The notes under the pieces are model-generated. The model did no database searches, had not been told where the DNA came from, and saw only the letters and a program-made list of their open reading frames with translations. Position numbers and translations under genes: made by a program. Shown here one piece after another: positions 16,825-63,783 of a stretch of 64,000 nt of DNA. Numbering within the stretch: position 1 is the stretch's first letter; every line of letters starts with the position of its first letter. This stretch comes from Pseudomonadota bacterium (GTDB lineage Bacteria; Pseudomonadota; Gammaproteobacteria; Burkholderiales; Rhodocyclaceae): the NCBI GenBank assembly GCA_018241665.1, contig JAFEDK010000026.1, forward strand, positions 120,169 to 184,168, in the 5' to 3' direction.

Positions 16825-16884
16825 GGAGCTTCACTGTGGGGAGCTTCACTGTGGGGAGCTTCACTGTGGGGAGCTTCACTGTGG
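16825..16884. repeat. Four tandem 15-bp repeats abutting REP copy A
   Basis: The unit GGAGCTTCACTGTGG is repeated four times without a mismatch (16825-16839, 16840-16854, 16855-16869, 16870-16884). The last unit ends in the GTGG that begins the left REP arm. The array lies between the TetR gene and fadL and is non-coding. It is a duplication of flank plus REP boundary, not a CRISPR (no spacers). Confidence 0.9.
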
Positions 16885-16947
16885 GGGCGAATTCATTCGC
16901 CCGCGGAGCTTGCTCGGCGTCCGGAGGGCGAATGAATTCGCCCCCAC
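16881..16947. repeat. REP/BIME-like element, copy A
   Basis: Two 22-bp arms in perfect inverted orientation (16881-16902 and 16926-16947) are separated by 23 bp. Each arm is GTGG plus the self-complementary GGGCGAATTCATTCGCCC, so each can form its own hairpin. The GTGG tetranucleotide followed by a hairpin is the layout of REP sequences mobilised by RAYT transposases. It lies between fadL and the TetR gene. Confidence 0.85.
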
Positions 16948-16972
16948 GACAGAACCCCTGAGCAGCCTCCTA

Positions 16973-18253
16973 TCAGAACGCCATCGAATACTGGGCGCCG
17001 AAGATCCACACCCGCGCATCATAGACGCCAGTCACCCGGCCACGGCCCAGGGCAGTCTGGTTGTTGTCGATGTGGGATTCCGGCACGTACAGGTAGGCGA
17101 CGCCGACATCGAGCGCTGAATCCTTGTTGACCTTGACCTGGGCACCGGTGGTGAACCAGGTCCGGTTGTTGTCTGGCAGGGACACCAGGCGATGCTGCGG
17201 GTCGCGCACCGGGCTCTGGTCGTAGGCGACGCCGAACTTGAGCTTCACCGCTTCGGTATAGCGGTAGTTGGCGCCCAGCGCGTAGCGCCAGGTATCGCGG
17301 AAGTCGGTGTCGAGGCTCTGCACCGTGGCGCCGTTGAGCAGCCCGGCGGTACGCACGATATCCACCTTGGGAATGCTGCTCCAGCCGGTCCACGACAGAT
17401 CGCCCAGCATCTCCCAGCGCTCGTCGAGCTTCTGGGTGACGCTGAGGATGAAGGTCGCCGGCAAATCCACGTTAGCCTTGGCAGAACCCGTCGTCAGTGC
17501 AGCACTGGCCCCCGCGGCGGGACCATCGATCTTCAGGTCGCCTTCGAGCTTATGGCGGACCTCTGAGCGGTAGGACACCCCAACCTTGGTCGTCGGACTG
17601 AGCGTGAACAAGGCGCCGAGGTTCCAGCCGAGGGACACGTCGTCAGCCGCGAAGGTGGCATGGGTCGCAGCCAGGGCAGCGGAGGTCACCGTCGCCTGAC
17701 GGCGGTAGTCCACTTCAATGCGCTGTATGCTCAACCCGCCGCCGATGGACACCTTGTCGTTGAGGCGGTAGGCCAGGCTCGGGTTGATGTTGTAGGTCTT
17801 GATGTCGAACTTGATCGCCTGGGCGCCGCCCAGCCAAGGATCGTCGTATTCGGTGATCAGGCCGAAGGGCGCACCGAGGCCGACCCCGGCATAGAGATCC
17901 TTGCTCAGCGCCCAGGACAGGTAGGCATTGGGCAGAAAAGCCCAGCTCCCCGCGTCACCGCCGTTGCCGGCACCACCCAGCACGCCGGTGCTGGAGCCCC
18001 GGTCGGAGAACTTGAAGGTCGGACGCACGATGGCCAGGCCGACCGACACCTCGCGGTCCTTCAGCTGGGTCATGCCGGCCGGGTTGAAGAAGATCGTGCT
18101 GGCGTTCTCCGCAACCGCCGCGGAACCAGCATAGGCATTGCCGATCCCGCTGGCGTTCTGCTCGAGCAGCTGGAAGCCGGCAGCCGCCGCTTGGCCGCTG
18201 GCCACGCCAAAGGCAAGCAAGGGCATCAATCGGGCGATGGTCTTCATCTTCAT
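16973..18253 (-). CDS. fadL: FadL-family outer-membrane long-chain fatty acid transporter
   Basis: Outer-membrane beta-barrel for uptake of long-chain fatty acids and other hydrophobic molecules. The signal peptide (about 25 residues, KTIARLMPLLAFGVASGQAAAA) is followed by the FadL N-terminal signature GFQLLEQNASGIGNAYAGSA and then NASTIFFNPAGMTQL, the plug/hatch region. Alternating amphipathic strands fill the rest, ending in the aromatic C-terminus QYSMAF. At 426 residues it is a normal FadL. It lies 119 bp downstream of the thioesterase gene on the same strand, so it may be read from the FadE-I-J transcript or from its own promoter. Its location among beta-oxidation genes supports a fatty-acid substrate. 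Confidence 0.92.
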   Translation of the reverse strand: MKMKTIARLMPLLAFGVASGQAAAAGFQLLEQNASGIGNAYAGSAAVAENASTIFFNPAGMTQLKDREVSVGLAIVRPTFKFSDRGSSTGVLGGAGNGGDAGSWAFLPNAYLSWALSKDLYAGVGLGAPFGLITEYDDPWLGGAQAIKFDIKTYNINPSLAYRLNDKVSIGGGLSIQRIEVDYRRQATVTSAALAATHATFAADDVSLGWNLGALFTLSPTTKVGVSYRSEVRHKLEGDLKIDGPAAGASAALTTGSAKANVDLPATFILSVTQKLDERWEMLGDLSWTGWSSIPKVDIVRTAGLLNGATVQSLDTDFRDTWRYALGANYRYTEAVKLKFGVAYDQSPVRDPQHRLVSLPDNNRTWFTTGAQVKVNKDSALDVGVAYLYVPESHIDNNQTALGRGRVTGVYDARVWIFGAQYSMAF

Positions 18254-18372
18254 ACCACTGTCTCCTCACAAGGGCGCTGTAGTTGTGTGCAGGCCACGGG
18301 GCGCGCAAACCCGCGACGATTCTAGAGCCCCGACAGACTGCCGCTACGCAGCAAATCGGGGCCCTGTTGGAT

Positions 18373-18780
18373 TCATGCAACAGTTTCGGGCGGCACCTCA
18401 CGCTTGACGCCGTTGGCATCCACCGCCACGTAGGTCAGCGTCGCCTCGGTGACCTTGACGACCACCGGGTTCTCGGGGTTGCGTTCCGCATAGACCTCGA
18501 CGTCGACGGTGATCGAGCTTTTGCCGATGCGCACGATCTCGGCGTAGAAGCTGACCATGTCGCCCACCGAAATGGGCTGCTTGAACAGGAAGGAATTGAC
18601 GGCGATGGTCGCCACCCGGCCGCGGGAGCGCTTATGGGCCGGCACCGCGCCGGCGATGTCCACCTGGGACATGATCCAGCCGCCGAACACATCGCCCGAT
18701 GGATTCAGATCGCGGGGCATCGGCATGACCCTCAGCACGGGGATCTTGCCGGCGGGCAATTGGGTGGGAATGTTGCACAT
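18373..18780 (-). CDS. yciA: Acyl-CoA thioesterase, YciA-like hotdog fold
   Basis: Hydrolyses acyl-CoA to free acid and CoA. It is a 135-residue single hotdog domain that begins MCNIPTQLPAGKIPVLRVMP. The motif DLNPSGDVFGGWIMSQVDIAG contains the catalytic Asp of the YciA/acyl-CoA thioesterase family; SFLFKQPISVGDMVSFYAEI and the C-terminal beta strands follow. ATG 18780 is preceded by AGGAG. The longer frame to 19023 is upstream-gene shadow. It lies 11 bp after fadJ, clearly in the same operon, where it could prevent CoA being trapped in acyl intermediates. Confidence 0.88.
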   Translation of the reverse strand: MCNIPTQLPAGKIPVLRVMPMPRDLNPSGDVFGGWIMSQVDIAGAVPAHKRSRGRVATIAVNSFLFKQPISVGDMVSFYAEIVRIGKSSITVDVEVYAERNPENPVVVKVTEATLTYVAVDANGVKREVPPETVA

Positions 18781-18791
18781 GGGAACTCCTG

Positions 18792-20735
18792 TCAGCGCCG
18801 GCCGCCGGAGAACGCGGCCGCGCGGGATTGGTGGAAAGGTCCGCCGGTGAAGGGCGGAAAGCCGGCCCCGAATATAACCCCGGCGTCCGCCAGATCGACA
18901 TCCTCCACCACGCCCTTGGCCACGCAGGCCTCGGCGGCCGCCTTCAGGGGCACCATGATCCGCTCCGCCAGGCCGGGCGGAATCGCACCCGGCCGGCCCT
19001 TGCGGGCCTTGCCGTCCTTCCACGCGTAAAAGCCCTGCCCGCTCTTCTTGCCCAGCTCTCCGCGCTCGACCCGCTCGGCCAACGCCCGCGGCATCACCGC
19101 CCCGGCGCCAGCCAGGGCCTTGCCGGCGGCCACGGCGATGTCCAGGCCCACCGTATCCACCAGCTCGATCGGCCCCAGCGGCATGCCGAAGGCCACCAGC
19201 GCCGCGTCTATGGTTTCCGGCGCGATGCCCTCCTCCACGCAGCGCAGCGCCTCGTACATGTACGGGCCGAGCAGCGCATTGACGAGGAAACCCGGCTCGT
19301 CCTTCACTGGCAACGGCAGCTTGTCGAGCCGGCGCACAAAAGCCGCCGCGCGCCGGAAAGCCTCGTCGCCGGACTGCGCGGCACGCACCACCTCCACCAG
19401 CGGCAGCACCGCCACCGGGTTGAAAAAATGGATCCCGACCAACCTTTCAGGCCGTGTCAGCGCCGTCGCGATATCGGCAATGCGCAGGCTGGAGGTGTTG
19501 GATGCCAGCAGCGCGTCCGGACGAGCCCGCTTTTCGATGTCGGCGAACAGCGCCCGCTTGGCCTCCAGGTCTTCGAAGATCGCCTCGATGATCACGTCGG
19601 CCTTCGCCACGCCATGGCCGGCCGGATCGGGAATCAGACGATCCAGGGCGAAACGGGCCTCCCTCGGCTTACTGCGGAATTTGCGCCCGAAGCGCTGCGC
19701 GGCACGGGCGATTGCCGGCGCGATGCGCTCGACGGACTGGTCCTGCAGCGTGACCGTCATGCCACGCAGCGCGCATTCGGCCGCAATGTCGCCGCCCATC
19801 ACGCCGGCACCAACCACATGTACATGGCGCGGCCGGAAGTCTCCATCCTTGCCGAAGCCCTTCAGGCGCTCCTGCAGGAAGAACACGCGGATCAGGTTGC
19901 GCGCCGTCGGCGAACGGAAAATCGCGCCCAGCGACGATGGCGAAGCGGCCGGCACCGCCAGCGCGTTGCCGCCGTGATTGGCCCAGGTATCGATGATCGC
20001 GAAGGGCGCCGGGTAATGCTCCCGGCGCACCTTGGCTTCCGCAGTCTTGCGCGCCTTGGCCGCGACAATGCCACGCAGCGGGCCGTTCATCAGCGCCTGC
20101 CCGATGGACGGCCTGCGCGGCGGCCGACCGGACATCAGCAGTATCCGCGCCGCGTCTTCCATCACCCGTGTCGGCACGCAGTCGTCGGCGAGGCCCAGGC
20201 GCTTCGCCTTCGGCCCATCGACGCCCTTGCCGGTCAGCATCATGTCGAGGGCCGCCGCCGGGCCGATCAGCCGCGGCAGGCGCAGCATGCCGCCCCACGC
20301 CGGCATGATGCCCAGCATCACCTCGGGCAACGCCAGGCGCGTGCCGGGTTCGTCCACCACCAGCCGGTAGCGGCAGGCCAGCGCCAGCTCCAGCCCGCCA
20401 CCCATGCAGTGGCCGCGCACCAGCGCCAGGGTCGGAAAACGCAGCGCAGCCAGGCGTTCGAACAGGCTCCAGCCCCGCTCCACCAGCTTGCGTGCCCCGT
20501 CGGCGGAATCGATGCGGGTGAACTCCTCGATATCGGCCCCGGCGATGAAGCCGGCGGCCTTGCCGGAGCGGATCACCAATCCGCTTGGCGGACGCACGGT
20601 GAGCTGATCGACGATGGCCTCCAGCTCGGCCATCACCCGGCTACCCAGCGTGTTGGCGGCAGCGCCCGGCACGTCGAGGGTCGCCCAGGCGATGCCGTCG
20701 GCGTCCCGTTCCAGTTTCCAATTGAGCAGCTCCAT
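18792..20735 (-). CDS. fadJ: FadJ-type enoyl-CoA hydratase / 3-hydroxyacyl-CoA dehydrogenase
   Basis: Bifunctional beta-oxidation enzyme with the hydratase domain first. The crotonase half (about residues 1-290) has SGKAAGFIAGADIEEF and GHCMGGGLELALACRYR. The dehydrogenase half has VHVVGAGVMGGDIAAECALRG, LLASNTSSLRIADIA and VGIHFFNPVAVLPLVEVV. At 647 residues it is shorter than E. coli FadJ (714), with a trimmed C-terminal domain. ATG 20735 overlaps the fadI stop by one base (TGATG); a GTG one codon earlier is also possible. It forms an operon with fadI upstream and the thioesterase downstream. Confidence 0.92.
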   Translation of the reverse strand: MELLNWKLERDADGIAWATLDVPGAAANTLGSRVMAELEAIVDQLTVRPPSGLVIRSGKAAGFIAGADIEEFTRIDSADGARKLVERGWSLFERLAALRFPTLALVRGHCMGGGLELALACRYRLVVDEPGTRLALPEVMLGIMPAWGGMLRLPRLIGPAAALDMMLTGKGVDGPKAKRLGLADDCVPTRVMEDAARILLMSGRPPRRPSIGQALMNGPLRGIVAAKARKTAEAKVRREHYPAPFAIIDTWANHGGNALAVPAASPSSLGAIFRSPTARNLIRVFFLQERLKGFGKDGDFRPRHVHVVGAGVMGGDIAAECALRGMTVTLQDQSVERIAPAIARAAQRFGRKFRSKPREARFALDRLIPDPAGHGVAKADVIIEAIFEDLEAKRALFADIEKRARPDALLASNTSSLRIADIATALTRPERLVGIHFFNPVAVLPLVEVVRAAQSGDEAFRRAAAFVRRLDKLPLPVKDEPGFLVNALLGPYMYEALRCVEEGIAPETIDAALVAFGMPLGPIELVDTVGLDIAVAAGKALAGAGAVMPRALAERVERGELGKKSGQGFYAWKDGKARKGRPGAIPPGLAERIMVPLKAAAEACVAKGVVEDVDLADAGVIFGAGFPPFTGGPFHQSRAAAFSGGRR

Positions 20736-22018
20736 CACAAGGCCTCCACCAGCATCGCGCCACCCTGGCCACCACCAATGCAGATGCTGGCGATACCGCG
20801 CCGGCCGCCGCTGCGGCGCAGAGCGTGCAGCAGATGCAGCACGATGCGCGCGCCGCTGGCCCCTACCGGATGGCCGAGGGCCACTGCGCCGCCATCCACA
20901 TTGAGGCGGGCGGGATCGATGGCCCCCAGCACGCCGGGCAAGCCCAGCAGCTCACGGCAGTAGGTGTCGTCCTGCCAGGCGCGCAGGCAGGCGATCACCT
21001 GCGCGGCGAAGGCTTCATTGATCTCCCACAGATCCACGTCATCGAGACCAAGCCCATGGCGCTGCAGGATCGGCGTCGCAGCATGAACGGGGCCAAGCCC
21101 CATCTGGTCCGGCTCCAGGCCGGCCCACTGGCTGTCGACGATGTGCCCGATCGGCTGCAGGCCGAAGCGCTCCACCGCCGTACCGGAAGCCAGCACCAGC
21201 CAGGTCGCGCCGTCGGTGATCTGGGAGCTGTTGGCAGCGGTGACACGACCGTACTTCCTGTCGAAGAAGGGCTTCGGCTTGGCCATTCCAGCCAGGCTCG
21301 CATCCCGGCGCAGACCGTCGTCGGCGTCGTAGACCGATCCGTCAGCGCCAATCAGCGGCACCAGCTCGTCAGCGAAATGGCCAGCATCCTGGGCCGCAGC
21401 CACACGCTGGTGGCTCGCGACGGCGTAAGCATCCATGTCCTGCCGCGTGATGCCGAACTTCCAGGCCAGGTTCTCGGCGGTCTGCCCCATCAGCTGGCCG
21501 ACGATGGGATCGGTAAGGCCCTTCATGATGCCGATCACCGGCGCCAGGTGCTTCAGGCGGAAGCCTTTCAGCGCGGCCAGCCGCTCGCCCCAGCCGCGCG
21601 CCGCCATCCAGCCGGCGAAGACGCGCACCATTTCATCGGAGAACAACAGCGGCGCACGGGACAAGGCATCGACACCACCGGCCAGCACCAGTTGCGAACG
21701 ACCACAACGGATGTTGGCGATCGCCGAATCCAGGGCCTGCATGCCCGACGCACAGTTGCGCATCACCGTCCAGCCCGGCACCTTGAGGCCGCAGCCCATG
21801 CGCAGCGCCACCACGCGGCCGATGTTCACCTCGTCCGGCGACGGGCTCGCACAACCGAGGATCACCTCGTCGAGCTGATCCGGTGCAAAAGGCTGGCGCA
21901 ACAGCAGCGCGCTGCCGGCGGCTGTGGCGAGGTCGGCGGCAGCGAATGGCCCCGGGCCACTGCGGGCTTTCAGAAAGGGGGTTCGCACCCCATCGATGAC
22001 GTAGATCGGCTCGTTCAT
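20735..22018 (-). CDS. fadI: Acetyl-CoA acyltransferase (FadI-type thiolase)
   Basis: 3-ketoacyl-CoA thiolase partnering with FadJ. It opens MNEPIYVIDGVRTPF. The nucleophilic Cys is in MRNCASGMQALDSA, and the C-terminal catalytic elements WEINEAFAAQVIAC, GGAVALGHPVGASGARI and SICIGGGQGGAML are intact. Its 427-residue length, longer than FadA-type thiolases, fits FadI. ATG 22018 is used; a GTG three codons upstream (22027) has a closer AGGGA element, so either start is possible. Its stop overlaps the fadJ start, and fadE lies about 40 bp upstream on the same strand. Confidence 0.92.
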   Translation of the reverse strand: MNEPIYVIDGVRTPFLKARSGPGPFAAADLATAAGSALLLRQPFAPDQLDEVILGCASPSPDEVNIGRVVALRMGCGLKVPGWTVMRNCASGMQALDSAIANIRCGRSQLVLAGGVDALSRAPLLFSDEMVRVFAGWMAARGWGERLAALKGFRLKHLAPVIGIMKGLTDPIVGQLMGQTAENLAWKFGITRQDMDAYAVASHQRVAAAQDAGHFADELVPLIGADGSVYDADDGLRRDASLAGMAKPKPFFDRKYGRVTAANSSQITDGATWLVLASGTAVERFGLQPIGHIVDSQWAGLEPDQMGLGPVHAATPILQRHGLGLDDVDLWEINEAFAAQVIACLRAWQDDTYCRELLGLPGVLGAIDPARLNVDGGAVALGHPVGASGARIVLHLLHALRRSGGRRGIASICIGGGQGGAMLVEAL

Positions 22019-22059
22019 GGTTCGCACGGGTCCCTTTCCTCAGGCGCGCCCGATCCCGC

Positions 22060-24537
22060 TCAGGCAGTCTTGTGCTGGGGTTCGGTGATGTCCGCCAGCG
22101 CGTCGCGCAAGCCAAAATCATAGGGAAAATCGTCCACGCGGATGACCTTGTCGCGCAATTCACCGCGACGCTTGATCAGCGCGTACTCGTTGCCCGAGAT
22201 GATGCCACCCGCCACCGCCGCGTCATACAACGCATCGACCCCGCCACCGACCAGCAGGCCGGGCGTGAAATGGCCTTCCCTGATCGCGCGGCGCACCTTG
22301 GCCTCGACCGGCTCCGCCGCAAGCGTGGCGTGCAACGCGGCCTCCAGCGCACCGACCGGCTCCTCCACATCCTTCGGCAGATACACATCGGAGGTCAGCC
22401 GGTCGCGGGTCGCCGACGGCTCGATGAGCAGGCCCGCCACCTGATGCCCGAGGGCGTCCGACGGCACCACATAGGGACGCCCGAGCGGAAAGACCACGAG
22501 GCGCCGCAGCAGCATCGCGAACAGCCGGTTGGGGAAATTGGCGATGACGCCCTCGAAGGCATTCTGCGCCTTGAACATGCAGTCCCAGATCGCCCAGTGC
22601 ATCAGCGGCGCATCATCGGCCTGGCGCCCTTCGTCCTCGTAGCGCTTGAGGGTGGCGGATGCCAGGTACATCAGCGACAGGATGTCACCGAGGCGGGCCG
22701 ACAGCTTCTCCTTGCGCTTCAGTGCGCCGCCGAGGGTCCCCATCGACACGTCGGCAAGCAGCGCGAAGGCCGCGGAGAAGCGCGTGAGTTGCTGGTAGTA
22801 ACGACGGGTTTCCGGTGCCACGTCGGCCGGCACCGCCACGAAATGGGAGCCGGTCAGGCCCATCACCAGCGCCCGCGCGGCATTGCCGATCGTGTAACCA
22901 ATATGGCCCCAGAAAGCCTGGTCGAAGACTGGCAGATCACCACTCCGCGCCGCATCCATTTCCTTCAGCACATAGGGATGGCAGCGGATCGCCCCCTGGC
23001 CGAAGAGGATCAGGCTGCGGGTCAGGATGTTGGCCCCCTCGACGGTGATGCCTACCGGAACCTGCTGGTAGGCCCGGCCGAGGAAGTTCTGCGGCCCCAG
23101 GCAGATGCCCTTGCCGCCGATCACGTCCATGCCGTCATTGACCGCCTGGCGGGCCCTTTCGGTGACGTGGTACTTGACGATGGCCGAGACCACAGCCGGC
23201 TTCTCGCCGAGGTCGATCGCCCCGGCGGTCATCACCCGCGCCGCGTCGCACAGGTAGGCGTTGGCGCCGATACGGGTCAGCGCCTCCTCAACCCCTTCGA
23301 AGCGCCCGATGGCGGTCTTGAACTGGTAGCGCACGCGGGCATAGGCGCCGACCGCGCGGGCCGTCATCTTCAACATGCCGGTGTTGGAACCGGGCAGCGA
23401 GATCGAACGCCCCGCCGCCAGGCATTCCATCAACATCCGCCAGCCCTGCCCCGCCATCTGCGGGCCACCGATGATGAAGTCGAGGGGCATGAACACGTCA
23501 CGCCCGCGGATCGGCCCGTTCATCCACACCGCATTGAGCGGGAAGTGGCGGCGGCCGATATCCACGCCCGGATGATCGTGGGGCACCAGCGCACAGGTGA
23601 TGCCCAGGTCCTCCACGTCACCGAGCAGGCGATCCGGATCGTAGAGACGGAAAGCCAGGCCGAACACCGTACACACCGGCGCCAGCGTGATGTAGCGCTT
23701 GTCGAAGCTGACCCGCATGCCCAGCACTTCGCGCCCCTGGTACTGGCCACGACAGACGACGCCCGCGTCCGGAATCGAAGCCGCATCGGACCCCGCCCAT
23801 GGGCTGGTCAGCGCAAAGGCAGGAATATCGACGCCGGCAGCCAGCCGCGGCAGGTAGTGCTGCTTCTGCTCGGGCGTACCGTAGTGCAGCAGCAATTCAG
23901 CCGGGCCGAGCGAATTGGGCACCATCACCGTCACCGCAGGTGCCGACGAGCGGGTGGACAGCTTGGTCACCACCTGGGAATGGGCATAGGCCGAGAAGCC
24001 CTTGCCGCCGTATTCCTTAGGAATGATCATGCCGAGGAAACCGCGCTCCTTGATGTACTTCCACACTTCGGCCGGCATGTCCTGGTGCTGGGTCATCTCC
24101 CAGTCGCAGGTCAGACGGCACAGTTCGGCGGTGTCCTCATCGAGAAAGCGCTGCTCCTCGGCGCTGAGCTTCGGCACCGGGTAAGCCAGCAGCTTTTTCC
24201 AATCCGGGCGACCGGCGAACAGCTCCCCCTCCCACCACACCGTGCCAGCCTCCAACGCATCCTTCTCGGTCTGCGACATGGACGGCAGCGCCTTGCGAAA
24301 AGCCTTGAAGATCGTCGCGGTAACAAGGCTGCGACGCAGACCAGGCAGCAGGAACACTGCACCTACCGCAGCCGCCCCGCCAATCACGCCGGTCACCATG
24401 ATCGACGACCAGCCGGCCGTGATTGCCGAAGCCGCCAGCCACAGCAGGCACGCCCCATACCAAGCAACAAACGGCGCCCGCCAGTAGGCAAGCGCAAGCA
24501 GCACAACGGGCAGGAAAAACAGGAACACATACGACAT
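22060..24537 (-). CDS. fadE: Acyl-CoA dehydrogenase FadE
   Basis: Large FAD-dependent acyl-CoA dehydrogenase catalysing the first oxidation of beta-oxidation, membrane-associated in proteobacteria. It begins with three hydrophobic segments (YVFLFFLPVVLLALAYW, then FVAWYGACLLWLAASAITAG and a third near residue 55), followed by TEKDALEAGTVWWEGELF, a FadE signature. Substrate and FAD-binding motifs FALTSPWAGSDAAS and GKGICLGPQNFLGRAYQ follow, with the long C-terminal DUF1974 extension. At 825 residues it matches E. coli FadE (814). ATG 24537 sits 7 nt after GGAG; GTG 24540 is also in frame. It is flanked by the PsrA-like repressor upstream and fadI downstream, likely in one operon. Confidence 0.94.
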   Translation of the reverse strand: MSYVFLFFLPVVLLALAYWRAPFVAWYGACLLWLAASAITAGWSSIMVTGVIGGAAAVGAVFLLPGLRRSLVTATIFKAFRKALPSMSQTEKDALEAGTVWWEGELFAGRPDWKKLLAYPVPKLSAEEQRFLDEDTAELCRLTCDWEMTQHQDMPAEVWKYIKERGFLGMIIPKEYGGKGFSAYAHSQVVTKLSTRSSAPAVTVMVPNSLGPAELLLHYGTPEQKQHYLPRLAAGVDIPAFALTSPWAGSDAASIPDAGVVCRGQYQGREVLGMRVSFDKRYITLAPVCTVFGLAFRLYDPDRLLGDVEDLGITCALVPHDHPGVDIGRRHFPLNAVWMNGPIRGRDVFMPLDFIIGGPQMAGQGWRMLMECLAAGRSISLPGSNTGMLKMTARAVGAYARVRYQFKTAIGRFEGVEEALTRIGANAYLCDAARVMTAGAIDLGEKPAVVSAIVKYHVTERARQAVNDGMDVIGGKGICLGPQNFLGRAYQQVPVGITVEGANILTRSLILFGQGAIRCHPYVLKEMDAARSGDLPVFDQAFWGHIGYTIGNAARALVMGLTGSHFVAVPADVAPETRRYYQQLTRFSAAFALLADVSMGTLGGALKRKEKLSARLGDILSLMYLASATLKRYEDEGRQADDAPLMHWAIWDCMFKAQNAFEGVIANFPNRLFAMLLRRLVVFPLGRPYVVPSDALGHQVAGLLIEPSATRDRLTSDVYLPKDVEEPVGALEAALHATLAAEPVEAKVRRAIREGHFTPGLLVGGGVDALYDAAVAGGIISGNEYALIKRRGELRDKVIRVDDFPYDFGLRDALADITEPQHKTA

Positions 24538-24607
24538 CACAAGTCTCCTTTACTCGGCGCCGTCCTGGCAGCGCGCTGTCTTTTATATACCAATGTCTTT
24601 TCTCGTC

Positions 24608-25276: not shown

Positions 25277-25292
25277 GGCACACCTGTCGGTC

Positions 25293-25718: not shown

Positions 25719-25734
25719 CGGCACGTCACACGGA

Positions 25735-44694: not shown

Positions 44695-45011
44695 TCGTCG
44701 ATACCCCGTCCCACGTCGTGCTGACCCTGGTGCTGCCCATCGAGGTGGAAGACGCCGTGCTGGAAACCCTGCTCGAACACCCGGAGCTGGCGCCGGGCTT
44801 CACCTCCCAGCGCGTCGAAGGCCAGGGCCAGCGGGTCACCTTCACCGGCACCGCCGAGCACGTGCGCGGCCGCGCCGCCTGCTGCCGGGTCGAACTGGTC
44901 GCCCCGCTGGGCGATGCCCAGGCCCTGCTCGACATCCTGCGCGAACGCTTCGGCACCAACCGGGTGTTCTTCTGGATGGTGCCAGTGATGGCCAGCGGGA
45001 GGCTCGCATGA
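44691..45011 (+). CDS. DUF3240 family protein
   Basis: A 106-residue soluble protein of the DUF3240 family, found almost only between heavy-metal RND pump genes and their outer-membrane partner. It is PII-like in size and pattern: VLTLVLPIEVEDAVLETLLEHPELAPGF at the start and LLDILRERFGTNRVFFWMVPV at the end. This suggests a ferredoxin-like fold that could regulate the pump or bind metal. Its function has not been established. It overlaps both neighbours by four bases (ATGA), so translation of the operon is fully coupled. Confidence 0.85.
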   Translation: MIVDTPSHVVLTLVLPIEVEDAVLETLLEHPELAPGFTSQRVEGQGQRVTFTGTAEHVRGRAACCRVELVAPLGDAQALLDILRERFGTNRVFFWMVPVMASGRLA

Positions 45012-46498
45012 AACGGCATACGCATCGTTCTCCCGCAGGGGCTGCTGCACTTGTGGGGGCTGCTGCATCTGTGGGGTCTGCTGCATCTGTGGGGTCTGCT
45101 GCATCTGTGGGGTCTGCTGCATCTGTGGGGTCTGCTGCATCTGTGGGGTCTGCTGCATCTGTGGGGTCTGCTGCATCTGTGGGGGCGAATTCATTCGCCC
45201 GCCGCCGCCTGTTCACCGTCCGCGGGCGAATGAATTCGCCCCTGCTGATGATGCTCTTTCCGCTTGCGGCCCTCGCCGGCCCGGCCGCCGATGCGCCGGA
45301 CCTGCCGCCCCAGGCCCAGGTGACCAGCGTGCTGCGCAGCAGCCCGATGGTCAGCGCCGCCGGCGCCATGCTGGAGGTCGAAGAAGCGCGCAGCCGGCGC
45401 CTCGCTGCCGGCCCCCACGAATGGATGCTGCGCCTCACGGAGCAGCAACGTCGCGTGCGCACGACGCCGGGCGAGCGCTTCAACGAACAGGACGTGGCGC
45501 TTGAACGTGCGCTGCGCCTGCCCGGCAAGGGGGAGCTGGACCGTCAGCTCGGCGCTGCCGGCATCGCCAGTGCCAAGATCGGCCGAGGCGATGCGCTGCA
45601 CGAAGCGAGCCGGGCACTGCTGGCCGGCTGGTTCGACTGGCTGCGCGAAAAGGCCGGCGCGGAACAATGGCGCAAGCAGCGCGACGTGCTGGCCCGCCAG
45701 GCCGGCGTGGTGAAACGCCGGGTCGAGCTGGGCGACGCCCCGCGCCTGGAAAAGCTGCAGGCCGATGCCGCGCTGGCCCAGGCCGAAGCCCAGCTTGCCC
45801 AGGCCGAAGGACGTACCCTGGTAGCCGCCGAAACCCTGCGCCGCCTCTACCCCGCGCTGAACCTGCCCGACAGCGTGCCCGAAGTGGCGCCCGAGGGGAT
45901 CGAGCAGGATTCCGCCAAATGGGTCGGCGCGATCCTCGAACACAATCATGAGCTGGGCGTCGCCCGCTCGGAGAGCCTGCGGGCGCGCATCGGTGCGACC
46001 CGTGCCGAGGCTGAACGACGCCCCGACCCGAGCGTCGGCGTACGTGTCGCCCGCGAGCGGGACGGCGAAGAACGCCTGGTCGGCCTGACCCTCAGCCTGC
46101 CGTTGCCCGGCGAAGGCCGCCGCGCCGATGCCGATGCCGCCATCGCCAGCGCCCAGGCCAGCGCCCACCGGGAAGCCGGCATCCAGCGCCGCATCGAGGC
46201 CGAGGCTGCCGCCCTGTACCGCCGCACCACCGCCGCCCGCGCCGGTTGGCTCGGCCAGCAGGCCGCGGCCGAAGCTCTGGCGCGCAGCGCCGACCTCAGC
46301 GAACGGGCCTGGCAACTCGGCGAGGGCAGCCTTTCCGACACTCTCAACGCCCGCCGCCTGGCCCACGAGGCCCGCCTCGCCGCCAGCCTGGCTCGCCTCG
46401 ACGCCAGCGAAGCCCGCTACCGCCTGCTCCTCGACGCCCACCAGCTGTGGGCGCTGGACATGGACGACGACGAACACGGCGAGCACGATCACCCCTGA
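45008..46498 (+). CDS. TolC/CzcC-type outer-membrane efflux protein with REP element in its signal region
   Basis: Outer-membrane channel of the metal-type RND system. The mature part (from about residue 90) has the coiled-coil pattern of the TolC fold: VLRSSPMVSAAGAMLEVEEARSRR, then two periplasmic helical repeats and LAASLARLDASEARYRLLLDAHQLWAL near the end, with a His/Asp-rich tail. The ATG at 45008 overlaps DUF3240 by four bases. Codons 12-80 are made of eight 18-bp repeats (encoding AASVGS) followed by REP copy B (encoding VGANSFA and RMNSP), then the hydrophobic LLMMLFPLAALAGP. The REP provides an alternative ATG at 45230. The original signal peptide was probably split by the insertion, yet the frame is open. 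Confidence 0.87.
   Translation: MKRHTHRSPAGAAALVGAAASVGSAASVGSAASVGSAASVGSAASVGSAASVGSAASVGANSFARRRLFTVRGRMNSPLLMMLFPLAALAGPAADAPDLPPQAQVTSVLRSSPMVSAAGAMLEVEEARSRRLAAGPHEWMLRLTEQQRRVRTTPGERFNEQDVALERALRLPGKGELDRQLGAAGIASAKIGRGDALHEASRALLAGWFDWLREKAGAEQWRKQRDVLARQAGVVKRRVELGDAPRLEKLQADAALAQAEAQLAQAEGRTLVAAETLRRLYPALNLPDSVPEVAPEGIEQDSAKWVGAILEHNHELGVARSESLRARIGATRAEAERRPDPSVGVRVARERDGEERLVGLTLSLPLPGEGRRADADAAIASAQASAHREAGIQRRIEAEAAALYRRTTAARAGWLGQQAAAEALARSADLSERAWQLGEGSLSDTLNARRLAHEARLAASLARLDASEARYRLLLDAHQLWALDMDDDEHGEHDHP
45042..45185. repeat. Eight tandem 18-bp repeats abutting REP copy B
   Basis: The unit CTGCTGCATCTGTGGGGT is present eight times from 45042 to 45185; the first copy differs (CACTTG instead of CATCTG) and the last merges with the REP arm. 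Units are 18 bp, so each adds six codons and the reading frame of the outer-membrane protein is kept. Such arrays can change copy number by slippage. Confidence 0.93.
45179..45242. repeat. REP/BIME-like element, copy B
   Basis: Left arm 45179-45200 (GTGG plus the 18-nt hairpin), 23-bp spacer, right arm 45224-45242, which lacks the last three bases. It is inside the 5' coding region of the outer-membrane efflux gene and encodes VGANSFA on the left arm and GRMNSP on the right. Confidence 0.85.
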
Positions 46499-54294: not shown

Positions 54295-54305
54295 CCAGCG
54301 TCCGC

Positions 54306-56327: not shown

Positions 56328-56414
56328 GTCTCTTCTCTTTATTTTTCTGTTGGCGTTTATCGACTCCCCTGCACTGCACAGCTGACATACCACGCAGTAC
56401 GAACGAGTCCGAGC

Positions 56415-56441
56415 ATATCGGCTCAAAACGGGCTGTCTTGA
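56415..56441 (-). promoter_or_regulatory. Sigma-28 (FliA) promoter of the chemoreceptor gene
   Basis: On the minus strand TCAA (56441-56438), a 15-nt spacer and GCCGATAT (56422-56415) match the FliA pattern TAAA-N15-GCCGATAA with one mismatch in each box. It lies 88 bp before the start codon, giving a leader of roughly 80 nt, and ties the receptor to the flagellar regulon. Confidence 0.7.
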
Positions 56442-56506
56442 GATTGAAATAAACGCGAACGGTCTTTTTTCACGCCGTCCGCATCACGGTGGCGCGGACG
56501 ACACGC

Positions 56507-57408: not shown

Positions 57409-57420
57409 GCCAGGCTCTAA

Positions 57421-57436
57421 AGTATCAATTGATACT
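57421..57436. promoter_or_regulatory. Perfect 16-bp palindromic operator of the toxin-antitoxin operon
   Basis: AGTATCAATTGATACT is a perfect dyad, 13 bp upstream of the antitoxin start codon. Position and symmetry match an autoregulatory site for the Xre-type antitoxin or toxin-antitoxin complex. It also marks a local drop in GC content. Confidence 0.8.
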
Positions 57437-57485
57437 CGAATATGGATCAGTCGACACCCTGCGTCAAGAGAAGCCGGCCAGCACC

Positions 57486-58532
57486 TCAGGCGAACAGGTC
57501 GGCCAGCCTGATCGACGGCCGCACGCCTACGTCCTGGCGGTGGGAGCGGATCCAGCGTGCCGCCCGCGCCCGCCCGAGGTCGCGCAGCTCGGTCAGGAAG
57601 GCCCGCGTGGCGTTGAGCTTGCTGGCGGTGCCGGCATCCACCAGTTCCTCGGCCTCCACCATGTGGAAGCGCAGGCGGGTCAGCTTGCGCTCCAGCCGCC
57701 CCTGGGGCAGCCAGTTGCTACCCTCCTCGATGTAGCTGCGGGCGTGGGCGATCATGCGCATCTCGCGCAGGAAGGTCGTCGAGAAGCCCAGCTCGACGCT
57801 GCGCGCGGCGATCTCCTCGGCGCTGCGGGGCGCCTCCGGGCGCACCAGTGGATTGAGCAGCACCAGCAGGATGTCCGGCGTGGCGCATTCGTACATCAAC
57901 GGATAGATCGCCGGGTTGGCGGTGAAGCCGCCGTCCCAATAGTCCTCCCCGTCGATCTGCACCGCGTGGTGCATGGTCGGCAGACAGGCCGAGGCGAGCA
58001 GCGCCTCCTCGCTCAGTTCGCGGGTATGGAACAGGCGGACCTTGCCGCTACGCACGCGGGTCGCCGCGATGAACAGCTTGAGCGGACAGTCCCGACGGAT
58101 ACGCTCGAAATCGAACTGGGCACGCACCACGTCGCGCAGCGGGTTGAGCTCGAAGGGATTGAGCTGGTAAGGCGAAAAGACCTTGGTCAGGCCCATCATC
58201 ATGCCCACCGGCCCCGGCAGCGAGCCGTCACCGGCGGGATTGAGGCTGTGCAGCAGGTCCAGCTCGAAAGGCGTGGTATCGGACACGGCCTCCCAGAACG
58301 CCGCCAGGCTCTCCCGCGCGCCCTCCGATCCGCCGCGGGTCCAGCCCTGGGCCAGCGCCACGGCATTCATCGCGCCGGCGCTGGTGCCGCTGATGCCGTC
58401 GATCTGCCAGTCGTCTTCCAGCAAGCGGTCGAGCACGCCCCAGGTGTAGGCGCCGTGCGCCCCGCCCCCCTGCAGGGCCAGGCTCAGGGACGGAACAGCA
58501 ATGTCCCGGGTTTTCCAAAGCTTCTTCAACAT
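57486..58532 (-). CDS. Patatin-like phospholipase
   Basis: A 348-residue lipid acyl hydrolase using a Ser-Asp dyad. The oxyanion loop is LALQGGGAHGAYTWGVLDRLL, the nucleophile is in GISGTSAGAMNAVAL (GxSxG), and the dyad Asp is in YWDGGFTANPAIYPL (DGG). There is no signal peptide, so it is probably cytosolic or membrane-associated. The lack of a beta-barrel separates it from PlpD-type exported enzymes. It follows the efflux lipoprotein gene on the same strand across REP copy C and lies upstream of the toxin-antitoxin pair, from which the dyad operator separates it. A substrate among membrane phospholipids is probable. Confidence 0.88.
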   Translation of the reverse strand: MLKKLWKTRDIAVPSLSLALQGGGAHGAYTWGVLDRLLEDDWQIDGISGTSAGAMNAVALAQGWTRGGSEGARESLAAFWEAVSDTTPFELDLLHSLNPAGDGSLPGPVGMMMGLTKVFSPYQLNPFELNPLRDVVRAQFDFERIRRDCPLKLFIAATRVRSGKVRLFHTRELSEEALLASACLPTMHHAVQIDGEDYWDGGFTANPAIYPLMYECATPDILLVLLNPLVRPEAPRSAEEIAARSVELGFSTTFLREMRMIAHARSYIEEGSNWLPQGRLERKLTRLRFHMVEAEELVDAGTASKLNATRAFLTELRDLGRARAARWIRSHRQDVGVRPSIRLADLFA

Positions 58533-58664
58533 GGACGGAATGCCTCCATTCAGGTGCTACGGCCTGGATTGCTGCGCCGCAGCATACATCATGGATGCCC
58601 GTCGATGACGAAAGTTCGCGCCGACCGGGGTGGCCGGGAGAATCAGGGGCCCGGACGCCTCCCC

Positions 58665-58769
58665 GTGGGGGCGAATTCATTCGCCCTCAGGTGCTTGAAT
58701 CGAGGCCGTGGCCCCTGCATTCCACCGTCAGCGAGGCACCAACCCGCTGCGGGCGAATGAATTCGCCCC
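58665..58769. repeat. REP/BIME-like element, copy C (long spacer)
   Basis: Left arm 58665-58686 and right arm 58751-58769 are in inverted orientation, but the spacer is 64 bp rather than 23. It lies between the patatin start and the end of the efflux lipoprotein gene. The longer spacer suggests a composite or a secondary insertion between arms. Confidence 0.8.
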
Positions 58770-58792
58770 GACATGGCCTTCCTGCTGGAGCG

Positions 58793-60211
58793 TCACCGGG
58801 TATCGGGCGGCAGCTTCCCGCCCAGCCCACCGCCGGCGTTCTTCGCCAGCAGCACCGCCGCCACCAGCCGGCGGGCGGCCAGGTCGCTGGCGCTGCGCTG
58901 GGCACTGAGATGGGTGGCCTGGGCGGTGACCACGTTGAGATAGCTGACCGCGCCGGCCCGGTACTGGTTGAGGGCGATGGCCTCGGCTTCGGCAGCGGCG
59001 GACACGGCGGCGGCCTGCTCGACGCCGGCCTCCTCCAGCACACGCACCGCGGCGAGGTTGTCCTCCACTTCCTGGAAGGCCGCCAGCACGGTCTGGCGGT
59101 AAGTCGCCACGGCCTGTTCCCAGACGCCGACGGCCTGGCCCACCGCGGCCTTCTTGGCACCCGCGTCGAACAGCGTCGCCGCCAGCGTCGGGCCGAGGGA
59201 CCAGTAGCGGCTCGGTACGGTCAGCAGATCCTCGATCTGCGAGCGGCGGAAGCCTGTGGAAGCGGACAGGCCGAGCACCGGGAAGCGCGCCGCCTGGGCC
59301 GCGCCGACGGCCGCATTGGCAGCGGCCACGCGGCGCTCGGCAGCAGCGATGTCGGGACGCCGTTCGAGCAGCGTGGACGGCAGCGTCAGCGTGACCGGCG
59401 CGGCGGCGAGCGGCCCCGCCACCGGCGGCAGCGCGAAGCCGGACGGCGCCTGGCCGATCAGCACCGCGATGGCGTGCTCATACTGGCTGCGCGACAGGCC
59501 GGCATCCAGCGCCGATGCGCGGGTGCTGCGCAGCTGGCTGTCCGCCTGGGCCACGTCGGCCTTGGTGGCGACACCGGCGGCGTAACGGTTGCGGGTCAGT
59601 TCGAGGGAGCGCTCGTAGGCTGCCACCGCCGCGTCGAGCAGTGCTTTCTGGCGGTCTGCCGCGCGCAACTGGAAGTAGGTCTGCGCCAGCGTCGCGTGGG
59701 CCGACAGGCGGGCCGCGGCGAGATCCGCCTCACTGGCCTGCACCCGCTCGTCGGCCGCTTCCACGTTGCGGGCGATACGCCCCCACACGTCGGCCTCCCA
59801 GCTGGCGGTGGCGCCAAGGCTGAAGCTGTTGACCGGCGGCGCGTTGCCGGCGCTGGCGGTGGACGCCGCGCTGGCCGAACGCGTCGCGCCGAAAGTGCCG
59901 TTGATGGTCGGGAACCACGACGAACGGGCGGAATCGGCCAGCGCCCTGGCCTGGCGGTACTGGGCCTCGGCGGCGCGCAGGTTCTGGTTGGAGATGTCCA
60001 CCTTGGCCTGCAGGCCGTCGAGCACCGGGTCGCCGAACACCGTCCACCAGGCGTCGCCGGAAACCGGGTCCTGCGGGCTCGCCGGGCGCCACTCGCCAGC
60101 CGCTTCCTTGAAGGCCGCGGGGGTTTCCACCGTCGGCCGCACGTAGTCGGGGCCAACGGTACATGCGGCCAGGAAAAGGCAGGGCAACACGACCCGTAGG
60201 GGCGAATTCAT
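58793..60211 (-). CDS. NodT-family outer-membrane efflux lipoprotein with REP-derived start
   Basis: Outer-membrane channel (472 residues) of the RND drug-efflux system encoded upstream. Signal and lipobox are MNSPLRVVLPCLFLAAC, followed by TVGPDYVRPTVETPAAF, the standard mature start of NodT-type lipoproteins. Two outer-membrane efflux repeats follow (NLRAAEAQYRQARALADSARS and the second near the C-terminus, with LLAKNAGGGLGGKLPPDTR at the end). The ATG used (60211) is inside REP copy D. The same frame stays open upstream through the whole REP to ATG 60364, directly after the mdtC stop. The true N-terminus was probably remodelled by the insertion. Confidence 0.88.
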   Translation of the reverse strand: MNSPLRVVLPCLFLAACTVGPDYVRPTVETPAAFKEAAGEWRPASPQDPVSGDAWWTVFGDPVLDGLQAKVDISNQNLRAAEAQYRQARALADSARSSWFPTINGTFGATRSASAASTASAGNAPPVNSFSLGATASWEADVWGRIARNVEAADERVQASEADLAAARLSAHATLAQTYFQLRAADRQKALLDAAVAAYERSLELTRNRYAAGVATKADVAQADSQLRSTRASALDAGLSRSQYEHAIAVLIGQAPSGFALPPVAGPLAAAPVTLTLPSTLLERRPDIAAAERRVAAANAAVGAAQAARFPVLGLSASTGFRRSQIEDLLTVPSRYWSLGPTLAATLFDAGAKKAAVGQAVGVWEQAVATYRQTVLAAFQEVEDNLAAVRVLEEAGVEQAAAVSAAAEAEAIALNQYRAGAVSYLNVVTAQATHLSAQRSASDLAARRLVAAVLLAKNAGGGLGGKLPPDTR

Positions 60212-60262
60212 TCGCCCGCAGAGCTTGATCAAAGCGCGTAGGGCGAATGAATTCGCCCCCAC
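60196..60262. repeat. REP/BIME-like element, copy D
   Basis: Arms 60196-60217 (with GTAG instead of GTGG) and 60241-60262 are inverted around a 23-bp spacer. It lies at the junction of the RND pump gene and the lipoprotein gene and supplies the likely start codon of the latter. GTAG/GTGG alternation is the signature of RAYT-recognised REPs. Confidence 0.85.
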
Positions 60263-60290
60263 AGACTTTTGCCCCACAGATTTTTGCCCC
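60257..60290. repeat. Tandem 15-bp repeats abutting REP copy D
   Basis: CCCCACAGACTTTTG (60257-60271), CCCCACAGATTTTTG (60272-60286) and a final CCCC. On the minus strand each unit ends in TGTGGGG, the REP boundary. The units are in frame with the lipoprotein gene and encode GQKSV repeats in the upstream extension. Confidence 0.85.
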
Positions 60291-60366
60291 AGTGGCGCCC
60301 CCCCAGCGGGACGCTTCCCGACAGGATCGACCGCCACCTTGGCCATCGCGTTCATCTTATTCATCT

Positions 60367-63300
60367 TCAAAGGGCGCTCTCCGCCTGCAATGCCGCCGCG
60401 GACTTGGGCTGGCGGCGCAGCCGGTCGAGCATCACGAAGACGACCGGCGTGGTGTAGAGGGTCAGGATCTGGCTGAGGATCAGGCCACCGACGATGGCGA
60501 TGCCCAGCGGCTGGCGCAACTCGGCGCCGTCGCCGCTGCCGATGGCCAGCGGGATCGCACCGAACAGGGCCGCCAGCGTGGTCATCAGGATCGGCCGGAA
60601 ACGCAGCAGGCACGCGTGGTGAATCGCGTCGCGGGCGCTGGCGCCCTGGCGTTGCAGCGCGATCGCCACGTCGATCATCATGATGGCGTTCTTCTTGACG
60701 ATGCCGATCAGCAGGATCACGCCAATCATCGCGATCAGGCTGAACTCGGTATCCATGCCCATCAGCGCCAGCAGCGCCCCCACGCCCGCCGAGGGAAGCG
60801 TGGACAGGATGGTGATCGGGTGGATCAGGCTCTCATAGAGCATGCCGAGCACGATGTAGATGGTCACCACCGCGGCCAGGATCAGCAGCGGCTGGGTGCT
60901 CATGGACTTCTGGAAGGCGCCGGTGCTGCCCTCGAAACTGGTGCGGATGCTCACCGGCACGCCGATGCGCGCCACCGCCGCGCGGATGGCGTCGGTGGCC
61001 TCGCCGATGGAGCGCCCTTCGGGCAGCGCGAAGCTGATCGTGGACGCCGCCGCACCGCCCTGGTGGCTCACCGACAGCGGCGCCAGCGTGGACACCACGC
61101 GGGCCACCGCCGACAGCGGCACCTGGGCGCCGGTGGACGACACCATGGTCAGCCGCGCCAGGGATTCCGGCCCCTGCAGGTAGTCGGACGCCGCCTCCAT
61201 CACCACCCGGTACTGGTTGAGCGGGTTGTAGATGGTGGACACCTGGCGCTGCCCGTAGGCGTTGTTGAGCGCCGTCGTCACCGCGCGCATGGTCAGGCCG
61301 TAGCGGGCCACTGCGTCGCGGTCGATCACCAGCGTGGTCTGCGGCCCCTTGTCCTGCTGGTCGGAGCTCACGTCGGTGATCTCGTCGAGGCGGCTCAGCG
61401 CGTTGCGGATGCGCGGCTCCCACAGGCGCAGCTCGTCCAGGTTGTCGGACTGCAGCGTGAACTGCTGGCTGGAGTTGCTGGAGCGCCCGCCGATGCGGAT
61501 GTCCTGCACCGGGTTGAGGTACAGGCTGGCACCCGGCACGTGGGCCAGCTTCTTGCGCAGGCGGGTGACGATGGCGTCGGCGGATTCCTTGCGCTCGTCG
61601 ATCGGCTTGAGGGTGATGAACATCGAGCCGGAGTTGATCTGCCCGCCGCCGGTGAAGCCGACCACGTTGGCGACCGCCGGGTCGGCCCCGACGAGGGCCA
61701 GGAAGACGTCCATCTTGCCTTTCATGGCCTGAAAGGAGATCGCCTGGTCGGCCTCGACGAAGCCGCGGATGCGCCCGGTGTCCTGCTGCGGGAAGAAGCC
61801 CTTCGGGATGGTGTTGTAGAGATGGACGTTGGCCGCGATGGTGGCGAGCAGGATGCCCAGCACCAGCCACGGGTGCGCCAGCGCCCAGCCCAGGCTGCGG
61901 CGGTAGCCGTCCACCAGACGATCCAGCGCGCCGCCGGCGAGGCGGTCGAAACGGCCGCGCTCCCCTTCCGGCGGGCGCTTCTGCAGCAGGCGCGCGCACA
62001 TCATCGGCGTGGCGGTCAGGGACACCACCATCGACACCAGGATCGCCGCCGACAGGGTGATCGCGAACTCCCGGAACAGCCGCCCGACGATGCCGCCCAT
62101 CGCCAGGATCGGGATGAACACGGCGATCAGCGACAGGCTCATCGACACCACCGTGAAGCCGATCTCCCGCGCGCCGCGCAGGGCCGCCTGGCGCGGCGCG
62201 AGGCCTTCGTCGATGTGGCGCGAGATGTTCTCCAGCACGACGATGGCGTCGTCCACGACGAAACCGGTAGCGATGGTCAGCGCCATCAGCGACAGGTTGT
62301 CGAGACTGAAGCCGGCCAGATACATCACCGCGAAGGTGCCGATCAGCGACACCGGCACCACCACGCTGGGGATCACCGTCGCCCGCAGGTTGCGCAGGAA
62401 CAGGAAGACCACCATCACCACCAGCGCTACCGAGATCATCAGCGTGTGCTCCACCTCGCGCAGGGAGCCGCGGATGGTCGGCGTGCGGTCCATCACCACG
62501 TCCAGGTCGATGGCCGGCGAGATGCTGGCGCGCAGGTGCGGCAGCAGCGCGGTGACCCGGTCCACGGTCTCGATGATGTTGGCGCCGGGCTGGCGGTTGA
62601 CCATCAGCAGCACCGCCGGGCGGCCGTTGGAATAGCCGTAGTTGCGGTCGTTCTCGATGCCGTTGCGCACATTGGCCACGTCGGACAGGCGCACCGCGGC
62701 GCCGTTCTTCCACGACACGATGAGCGGCTTGTACTCGTCGGCGGTTCGCGCCTGGTCGTTGGCGCCGACCTGCCAGGCCCGCTCGCCGTCCTCCACCACG
62801 CCCTTCGGACGGTTGGCGTTGGTGCCGACGATGGCAGTACGCACGTCGTCCATGTTGAGGCCGTTGGCGGCCAGGCGGTCCGGGTCCAGCTCGACGCGCA
62901 CCGCCGGCAACGAGCTGCCGCCGATGGACACCTGGCCGACCCCCTCCACCTGGGACAGGCGCTGGGCCAGCACCGTCGACGCGGCATCGTAGAGCTGGCC
63001 CTTGGTCAGCGTGTCCGACGTGAGGGCCAGGATGATGATCGGCGTCTCGGCCGGGTTCACTTTGCGATAAGTCGGGTTGTTCGGCAGGCTGGTCGGCAGC
63101 TGGCCGCGGGACGCGTTGATGGCGGCCTGCACGTCGCGGGCGGCGCCGTCGATGTCGCGGGACAGCTCGAACTGCAGCGTCACCCGCGTCGAGCCGAGGG
63201 TGCTGTAGGAGGTCAGCTCGGTAACGCCGGCGATCTGCCCGAGGATGCGCTCCAGCGGCCCGGCGACGGTGGCCGCCATGGTTTCCGGGCTGGCACCGGG

Positions 63301-63453
63301 CAGGTTGGCCGACACCGAGATGGTCGGGTAATCCACCTGCGGCAGCGGCGACACCGGCAGCAGGCGGAAGGCGATCGCCCCGGCCAGCGCCACGGCCAAG
63401 GTCAGCAGCGTGGTGGCGACCGGGCGGAAGATGAACAGGCGGGACAGATTCAT
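60367..63453 (-). CDS. mdtC: RND multidrug efflux pump, MdtC-like
   Basis: A 1028-residue hydrophobe/amphiphile-class proton antiporter, close to the MdtC half of the heteromeric MdtBC pump (substrates in E. coli include bile salts and novobiocin). The N-terminus [24 protein letters not shown] and [23 protein letters not shown] are MdtB/C-specific. Helix 4 has [16 protein letters not shown] with the paired proton-relay Asp residues, and the second half has [24 protein letters not shown] 63453 is the conserved start; upstream codons are REP sequence. The lipoprotein channel frame begins right after its stop. The gene before it is an MdtB-like pump 346 bp upstream, separated by three REP copies. 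Confidence 0.93.
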
Positions 63454-63511
63454 CGCGGCCCGGCCTCCCGGCAAGCGCCGATGCACGCAGGCACAACGCT
63501 GAGCGGCAGCA

Positions 63512-63533
63512 GGGCGAATGAATTCGCCCCCAC
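63512..63533. repeat. REP arm, half copy E
   Basis: A single right arm (18-nt hairpin plus the CCAC complement of GTGG) between mdtC and REP copy F, with no matching left arm in the 60 bp toward mdtC. Its right flank (CCCCCACGGCAA) is shared with copy F, suggesting a local duplication. Confidence 0.75.
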
Positions 63534-63607
63534 GGCAAACACCGCGCCATGCCAATCCCCAGGATATGGATTATCCCATACAAAGACCGATGCCTCGTCC
63601 CTGTCTT

Positions 63608-63674
63608 GTGGGGGCAAATTCATTTGCCCAGAGCACGTTCCGTAACCGCTACGGGAGAATGAGTCGGCCCCCAC
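63608..63674. repeat. REP/BIME-like element, copy F (diverged)
   Basis: Arms 63608-63629 (GCAAATTCATTTGC core, still symmetrical through compensating changes) and 63653-63674 (GGGAGAATGAGTCGGCC, degraded) around a 23-bp spacer. The compensating changes in the left arm indicate that hairpin formation has been under selection, or that a variant REP family is present. Confidence 0.75.
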
Positions 63675-63700
63675 GGCAACCGACGCGCCCGCTTCACCCC

Positions 63701-63783
63701 GTGGGGGCGAATTCATTCGCCCGAAGTGCGTTCCGTGGGCGCCTCGGGCGAATGAATTCGCCCCCACATCGGCCCCCACATCA
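63701..63783. repeat. REP/BIME-like element, copy G, with 12-bp tandem duplication
   Basis: Arms 63701-63722 and 63746-63767 around a 23-bp spacer. The right boundary is duplicated: GCCCCCACATCG (63760-63771) and GCCCCCACATCA (63772-63783). It occupies the mdtB-side end of the 346-bp gap 63454-63799, which otherwise contains only copies E and F. Confidence 0.85.

Follow-up and report, generated by a model that had tools for sequence, protein, structure and literature searches.

Short tandem duplications of flanking DNA at the T-GTGG heads of a REP element in a genome taken as Zoogloea

Four copies of a repetitive extragenic palindrome (REP) lie directly beside short tandem arrays in a 64,000-nucleotide stretch of a draft bacterial genome (C18:120169-184168 of G000, 5.43 Mb in 55 contigs), which is called the window here. 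The locus raises the question why arrays of unrelated units should all end at the same end of one element. The REP has the sequence GTGGGGGCGAATTCATTCGCC; its front end, GTGG or more generally GTRG, is referred to as the head, and two inverted REPs with their heads outward form a REPIN. The host is taken as Zoogloea by its genus kinship with G006, a sister species available as a draft assembly of ~730 contigs. A sequence-only reading of the window had described four arrays next to GTGG ends, each with a unit private to its site. All four are present at or within a few bases of where it had placed them (Table 1), and their site-specific units are confirmed in the sequence.

Stutter at REP heads, its controls and its units

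The stutter at REP heads is real and extends over the whole genome. Under a strict test, defined as a tandem duplication ending at the REP head with a score cut of 9, boundary-abutting duplications were found at 12 of 156 heads in 40 stretches outside the window (800 kb, L001-L040), which were picked without regard to arrays and are called unselected here, vs. none at 165 REP tails (168 REPs, window included, minus three short of sequence). REPs closer than 200 nt (in one count) or 150 nt (in another) to the start of a stretch on the same strand were left out; the Fisher test behind the head statistics used the 150-nt cut with 12/157 heads. Only 30 of 20,000 random positions passed the strict test, and no array was found at 320 GTGGGG sites away from REPs or at 252 other perfect hairpins with stems of at least 10 in 80 stretches, a set that holds only nine with stems of at least 15 and is mostly weaker than the REPIN. 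These controls rule out chance and ordinary microsatellites, as the sequence-only reading had argued, and the restriction of the duplications to the GTGG side, which it had proposed as a check, is borne out by heads and tails.

Seven of the eight clean short arrays in the 800 kb (period 7-20, copy number 2.8 or more, match 90% or better) adjoin a REP head and are accounted for by stutter, while the eighth starts 22 nt from one. An equal abundance of such repeats at loci away from REPs, named beforehand as grounds for giving up the idea, is thus not observed. The other such ground, that most copies lack duplications, is true as a plain count, since 144 of the 156 heads fail the strict test; the arrays are genome-wide but affect a minority of REPs, including 4 of the 12 heads in the window, of which three pass the strict test. 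The eighth clean array consists of ten copies of CCAAAGC at L005:7745-7816, and G006 has neither array nor REPIN at this place. In the whole genome of G000, a search for GTGGG lying 6-17 nt ahead of an exact REP head gave 158 matches among 491 heads (a few heads being counted twice), and the reversed-pattern control gave none. Because a few spacers looked alike, copying of spacers from one REP flank to another was also considered as a possible source. With a gap of 36-47 nt, 70 matches were recorded, many of them visibly with at least three identical units private to the site.

Altogether 63 arrays were gathered, including three 53-bp repeats of whole REPs. Additional stretches were chosen mostly for near-GTGGG sites and pooled rates are therefore inflated; unselected rates refer to L001-L040. 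The phase was set for 48 arrays, the other 15 remaining unphased. Their units start with 4-8 REP bases (41/48) and continue the local flank in 5-12 bases, typically ~8 nt, that end just before GTGG (40/48); the period is 11-18 in 40 and 13-15 in 28 of the 48, and 44 units do not exceed 18 bp. Because the unit consists of the REP start plus the flank preceding it, the duplicated segment straddles the head from about -8 to +6, and since the units contain REP bases, the duplications are younger than the insertion of the REPIN. The claim that all units share one boundary holds in that they are always found at a REP head, but the exact base varies (GTGG plus usually 0-4 more REP bases), wandering through the G-run. 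The arrays qualify as minisatellites or variable-number tandem repeats (VNTRs), with units of at least ~7 bp arranged head-to-tail and copy numbers that vary between relatives. Their units do not hold a whole REP as those of bacterial interspersed mosaic elements (BIMEs) or tandem REPIN clusters do, with the exception of the three 53-bp arrays among the 63, such as the one at L140:6640-6760 on the minus strand.

Junction microhomology was scored in 35 of the 63 arrays (in 17 the outer copy had diverged, and 11 were unparsed) and amounted to 2.4 nt on average (range 0-6), vs. 1.1 nt for a background made up of every junction that 51 TGTGG flanks without stutter allow; none of 20,000 resampled background means reached 2.4 nt. 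Zero microhomology was recorded in 5 of the 35. A fixed cut-and-join at GTGG is unsupported, as the breakpoints wander and carry microhomology.

Copy number turns over between the two species. The flank-plus-head copies of G000 and G006 differ at all six heads that were paired, being 4 vs. 1 (the window array at 16825), 4 vs. 15, 8 vs. 1, 6 vs. 1, 6 vs. 1 and 2 vs. 1; five of the pairs were matched by both flanks, and the pair C5/C130 by unit identity alone. The G006 flank corresponding to the 16825 array is single-copy and stands beside a collapsed version of the REPIN. Either these arrays grew from a flank present once, or copies were lost until one remained, which may be what happened in G006.

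The base before GTGG and the stutter in other genomes

The base before GTGG is the best predictor of stutter. All four stuttered heads of the window read TGTGG, while a fifth TGTGG head, with a two-mismatch core, and the seven non-TGTGG heads are clean. Among perfect-core paired heads of the unselected stretches, arrays occur at 10/34 TGTGG vs. 1/36 CGTGG heads (p=0.003); the counts rise to 52/151 vs. 1/66 once the window and selected stretches are included. REPINs whose two heads differ, one having T and the other C, offer a control of the same age and the same hairpin, because both heads belong to one element: the array was on the T side in seven, on the C side in none, and on neither in 19, the T-side arrays comprising 1/7 unselected, 5/17 selected and 1/2 window REPINs; by a looser test the T side leads the C side by 12 to 2. 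The outer base is not decisive, as judged from array rates of 46/128 after CT and 5/17 after TT. GTAG heads carry arrays less often than GTGG heads (3/63 vs. 59/301 in all, 0/35 vs. 12/105 unselected). In G006, arrays were found at 4/18 TGTGG, 1/7 CGTGG and 0/5 GTAG heads.

A T also precedes the head in 55/60 cases in G003, 22/25 in G021 and 29/31 in Pseudomonas, and it is read as part of the canonical REP head. Heads with an N in the flank were omitted from the base-frequency logos. A published guide rule, under which GTAG selects CT and GTGG selects CC (PMC8266576, available in part), is not followed by the 36 GTAG heads of G000, where the preceding base is C in 56% and T in 31%.

G003, another Zoogloea, has its own RAYT (REP-associated tyrosine transposase), 62% identical, and a different REP, GTAGGGGCGACTTCAGTCGCC. 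A GTRG occurs 9-19 nt upstream of 25/60 of its heads, 16 of them at exactly 13 nt, vs. 3/60 at 45-55 nt, and the first 13 nt of the REP recur in the 13 nt preceding a head with an average match of 57%, vs. a background of ~26%. The pattern is a decaying ladder of half-REPs. The strict test is passed there by 3/60 heads and 0/60 tails.

The 21-base REP of G000 is common to Zoogloea (Betaproteobacteria) and Pseudomonas (Gammaproteobacteria; stretches L059-L071). Four Pseudomonas genomes hold 806 copies of its first 20 bases, near GTGGG in 53 matches. No array was found at 31 sampled Pseudomonas heads, and among heads preselected for a near GTGGG one of 12 passes, with a 17-bp unit in two copies at a TGTGG head of Pseudomonas resinovorans (L218). 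The stutter thus extends to another class of bacteria, but rarely.

Candidate mechanisms

Any explanation has to accommodate arrays that are pinned to heads and change in place, carry microhomology at their junctions, turn over between species and depend on the preceding T. Our reading, to which we assign a probability of roughly 0.45, is that DNA synthesis slips locally and preferentially at canonical REP heads (T-GTGG, and T-GTAG in a relative), the head being held or nicked by RAYT. A growing 3' end would copy the flank and the first 4-8 REP bases (sometimes 11-13, up to the hairpin loop), detach, and anneal again ~8 nt upstream of the head through 0-6 nt of microhomology; flank plus head would then be recopied, adding one unit of ~14 nt. 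Once two copies were present, ordinary slippage could alter their number. The RAYT transposase may grip or nick the head and thereby create or block the 3' end, and a covalent RAYT-DNA complex could itself block the fork.

G000 has a single Y1 transposase gene, located on C3 between REPINs, one of which bears an array. It is a RAYT according to NCBIfam (NF047646, 150 bits vs. a cut-off of 80), and the only match of its product in the Protein Data Bank (PDB) is TnpA-REP 4er8; in the predicted protein, HLH is seen in the sequence as a candidate HuH motif, and a tyrosine that may be the catalytic one aligns with 4er8. Together with a high-copy palindrome with a GTRG head and outward-facing inverted pairs, this gene, flanked by REPs, gives the element the features of a REP with its cognate RAYT. 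A tandem REP cluster with six same-strand heads ~115 bp apart lies a few kb from the gene (C3:129473-130049).

The most serious alternative, which we regard as a real possibility although below even odds, is that the REPIN hairpin by itself makes replication slip, RAYT having no part in it: the palindrome would fold on the lagging-strand template, the polymerase would stall at the foot of the hairpin once GTGGGG has been copied, and the new end would re-pair on upstream G-runs. Such a plain stall explains the junction microhomology, and it agrees with the collapse of REPINs in G006 between internal direct repeats, which amounts to slippage across the hairpin. It also suits a bias seen in T/T REPINs with a one-sided array, in which the array lies at the head reached by lagging-strand synthesis in 18:9 cases (p=0.12), or in 18:7, 18:5 and 11:4 at GC-skew cuts of 0.02, 0.03 and 0.05 (p=0.04, 0.01 and 0.12; four cuts were run, and all are reported); this bias is suggestive only. 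Finally, arrays exist in G006, where no RAYT was detected. A head engaged by RAYT, for its part, explains why the T matters and why arrays keep to REPs. The hairpin does not account for the difference between T and C heads, even within single elements, and we know of no hairpin property that would separate them. Other hairpins yielded no arrays, although just nine had the longer stems, and the same REP seldom stutters in Pseudomonas, although the paired heads are further apart there. As the base beside the head, rather than the hairpin or the G-run, divides stuttering from clean heads, we lean slightly towards RAYT as the more likely trigger of the slippage.

Several observations weigh against this RAYT step. 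Searches with PF01797 or with the RAYT protein detected none in G006, G013 or G014, a gap in the fragmented G006 assembly being possible, and G006 nevertheless has arrays, one of them with 15 copies, including one at one of its seven C heads. G021 possesses RAYTs and the REP type of G003, yet 0/25 heads pass the strict and 6/25 a loose test, and stutter is rare in Pseudomonas, where the REP is the same and most heads have T. If RAYT acted on the lagging-strand template, the weak strand bias should run the other way. TT heads stutter about as often as CT heads, and a change from CT to TT abolished cleavage by the Stenotrophomonas maltophilia enzyme, according to the available part of PMC8266576, whose guide rule moreover pairs GTGG with CC and not with CT. 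The proposal of the sequence-only reading, that a Y1 transposase nicks at GTGG and re-synthesis follows, is affected accordingly: arrays that are pinned to the head and formed in place, and the dependence on T, fit an enzyme recognizing the head, but the wandering junctions, the 15-copy array of a genome without detected RAYT and the direction of the strand bias do not.

The remaining explanations carry far less weight. It is improbable that the mobile element extends beyond the REP, with a half-REP before the head moving along and the ladders representing decayed parts that were later amplified at some sites; the half-REP similarity before G003 heads and the high G content of G000 flanks at -13 to -19, whatever the head class, would suit this, but the units of G000 are site-specific and the single-copy flanks of G006 lack a half-REP. 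That arrays adjoin REPs could also mean that REPINs inserted beside pre-existing tandem repeats, which is contradicted by the REP bases in the units and by single-copy G006 flanks at five of six heads and is very hard to credit. Just as little probability is given to a draft-assembly artefact: G000 and G006 are both drafts, but the controls are at or near zero and the same units are arrayed in the independent G006 assembly.

A further-reaching possibility, somewhat doubtful at present, is that RAYT acts as a site-directed local mutator whose grip or covalent cut at the T-GTRG head restarts or blocks synthesis and gives each REP its private minisatellite. If so, hundreds of sites would evolve different VNTRs through one enzyme, and RAYT activity in living cells could be read directly from the ladders. 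In any case, events at REP heads can be counted site by site from the boundary stutter, the T and C heads of one element serving as internal control.

Slipped-strand mispairing at hairpins and minisatellites is known for short units, microhomology and copy-number turnover, all of which recur here; the difference is that, within a single genome, dozens of unrelated units share an end point set by the head of a mobile element. The other related systems are described in sources available in part. Tandem REP clusters including flanks are known (PMC3116915, PMC3733652), and Nunvar et al. (2010; PMC2817692) proposed that RAYT cuts the REP head and synthesis is then primed from the 3'-OH, explaining these clusters (BIMEs). 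The statement that no described process gives such a pattern was thus too strong, although that proposal concerns BIMEs and not flank stutter. BIMEs and REPIN clusters resemble the present arrays in their tandem reiteration at REPs with flanking DNA, their strain variation and the proposed role of RAYT, but their unit holds whole REPs, whereas here the palindrome is single, and flank and head start are repeated. Cleavage beside REPs by RAYT is established in vitro (PMC8266576) and shares the GTRG head, the hairpin and a single-strand cut next to the REP, frequently at CT; tandem duplication is not described in the available part of that paper, and here T rather than C before GTGG matters and TT works. 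In Escherichia coli, protein-DNA crosslinks stimulate template switching (PMC6357072), an analogous case of a covalent protein on DNA raising slippage-type events, but there a drug traps a methylase and the events concern quasipalindromes, with the stronger effect on the leading strand and no RAYT involved. Flank stutter at REP heads was not found described in the open-licence literature, a coverage outside which most subscription papers fall, and the available portions of PMC3686654 and PMC12306157 hold nothing on it.

Window features and related observations

Table 1. Tandem arrays, REPINs and other REP copies of the window (positions in the window)
Feature	Position	Strand	Remarks
Array, 15-bp unit x4.1 (4 flank-plus-head copies)	16825..16886	+	100% match; adjoins left head of REPIN; single copy at matching site of G006
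REPIN, two perfect-core inverted REPs	16881..16947		left head TGTGG stuttered; right head CGTGG clean
Array, 18-bp unit x8.2	45038..45184	+	97% match, outermost copies differ; adjoins left head of REPIN; unit in frame in open reading frame (GSAASV)
REPIN	45179..45245		left head TGTGG stuttered; right head degenerate (GCAG), clean
REP pair	58665..58772		both heads clean (CGTGG, TGTCG)
REPIN	60196..60262		left head CGTAG clean; right head TGTGG stuttered
Array, 15-bp unit x2.3	60257..60291	-	95% match; adjoins right head of REPIN 60196..60262
Single REP	63513..63533	-	head CGTGG, clean
Single REP, 2-mismatch core	63608..63628	+	head TGTGG, clean
REPIN	63701..63767		left head CGTGG clean; right head TGTGG stuttered
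Array, 12-bp unit x1.9	63760..63782	-	100% match; score 7, below cut of 9; adjoins right head of REPIN 63701..63767

In one case, that of the 18-bp array, stutter lengthens an open reading frame in frame. The frame (window 45008-46498; MKRHTHRSPAGAAALVG...), with its GSAASV repeats, contains the array and the REPIN, which is translated through; its later part looks by eye like an outer-membrane efflux protein, and G013 and G014 differ at this place.

REP heads in G000 number 491 if exact and 800 if up to two mismatches are allowed; exact heads elsewhere amount to 77 in G006, six in G014, six in G008 and none in G013. Among the 168 REPs in 864 kb there are 62 REPINs, counted as inverted pairs with centres 40-49 nt apart. 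Two REPINs of G006 (L049:17640-17690 and L151 near 4237-4260) are reduced to one palindrome, as if deleted between internal ATTCGCCC direct repeats. The REPIN at L005:19003-19073 has a clean empty site in G006 (L147); the extra stretch exceeds the length of the REPIN and has GTGACG on both borders, like a target duplication. A run of a GGGTT-type 5-bp repeat lies tens of bases upstream of a G006 REPIN (L089/L160), with none seen at the G000 match. G014, with its six REP copies and without detected RAYT, carries a stuttered array on the minus strand at L062:1758 whose outer units read GCGG for GTGG, apparently a decaying ladder.

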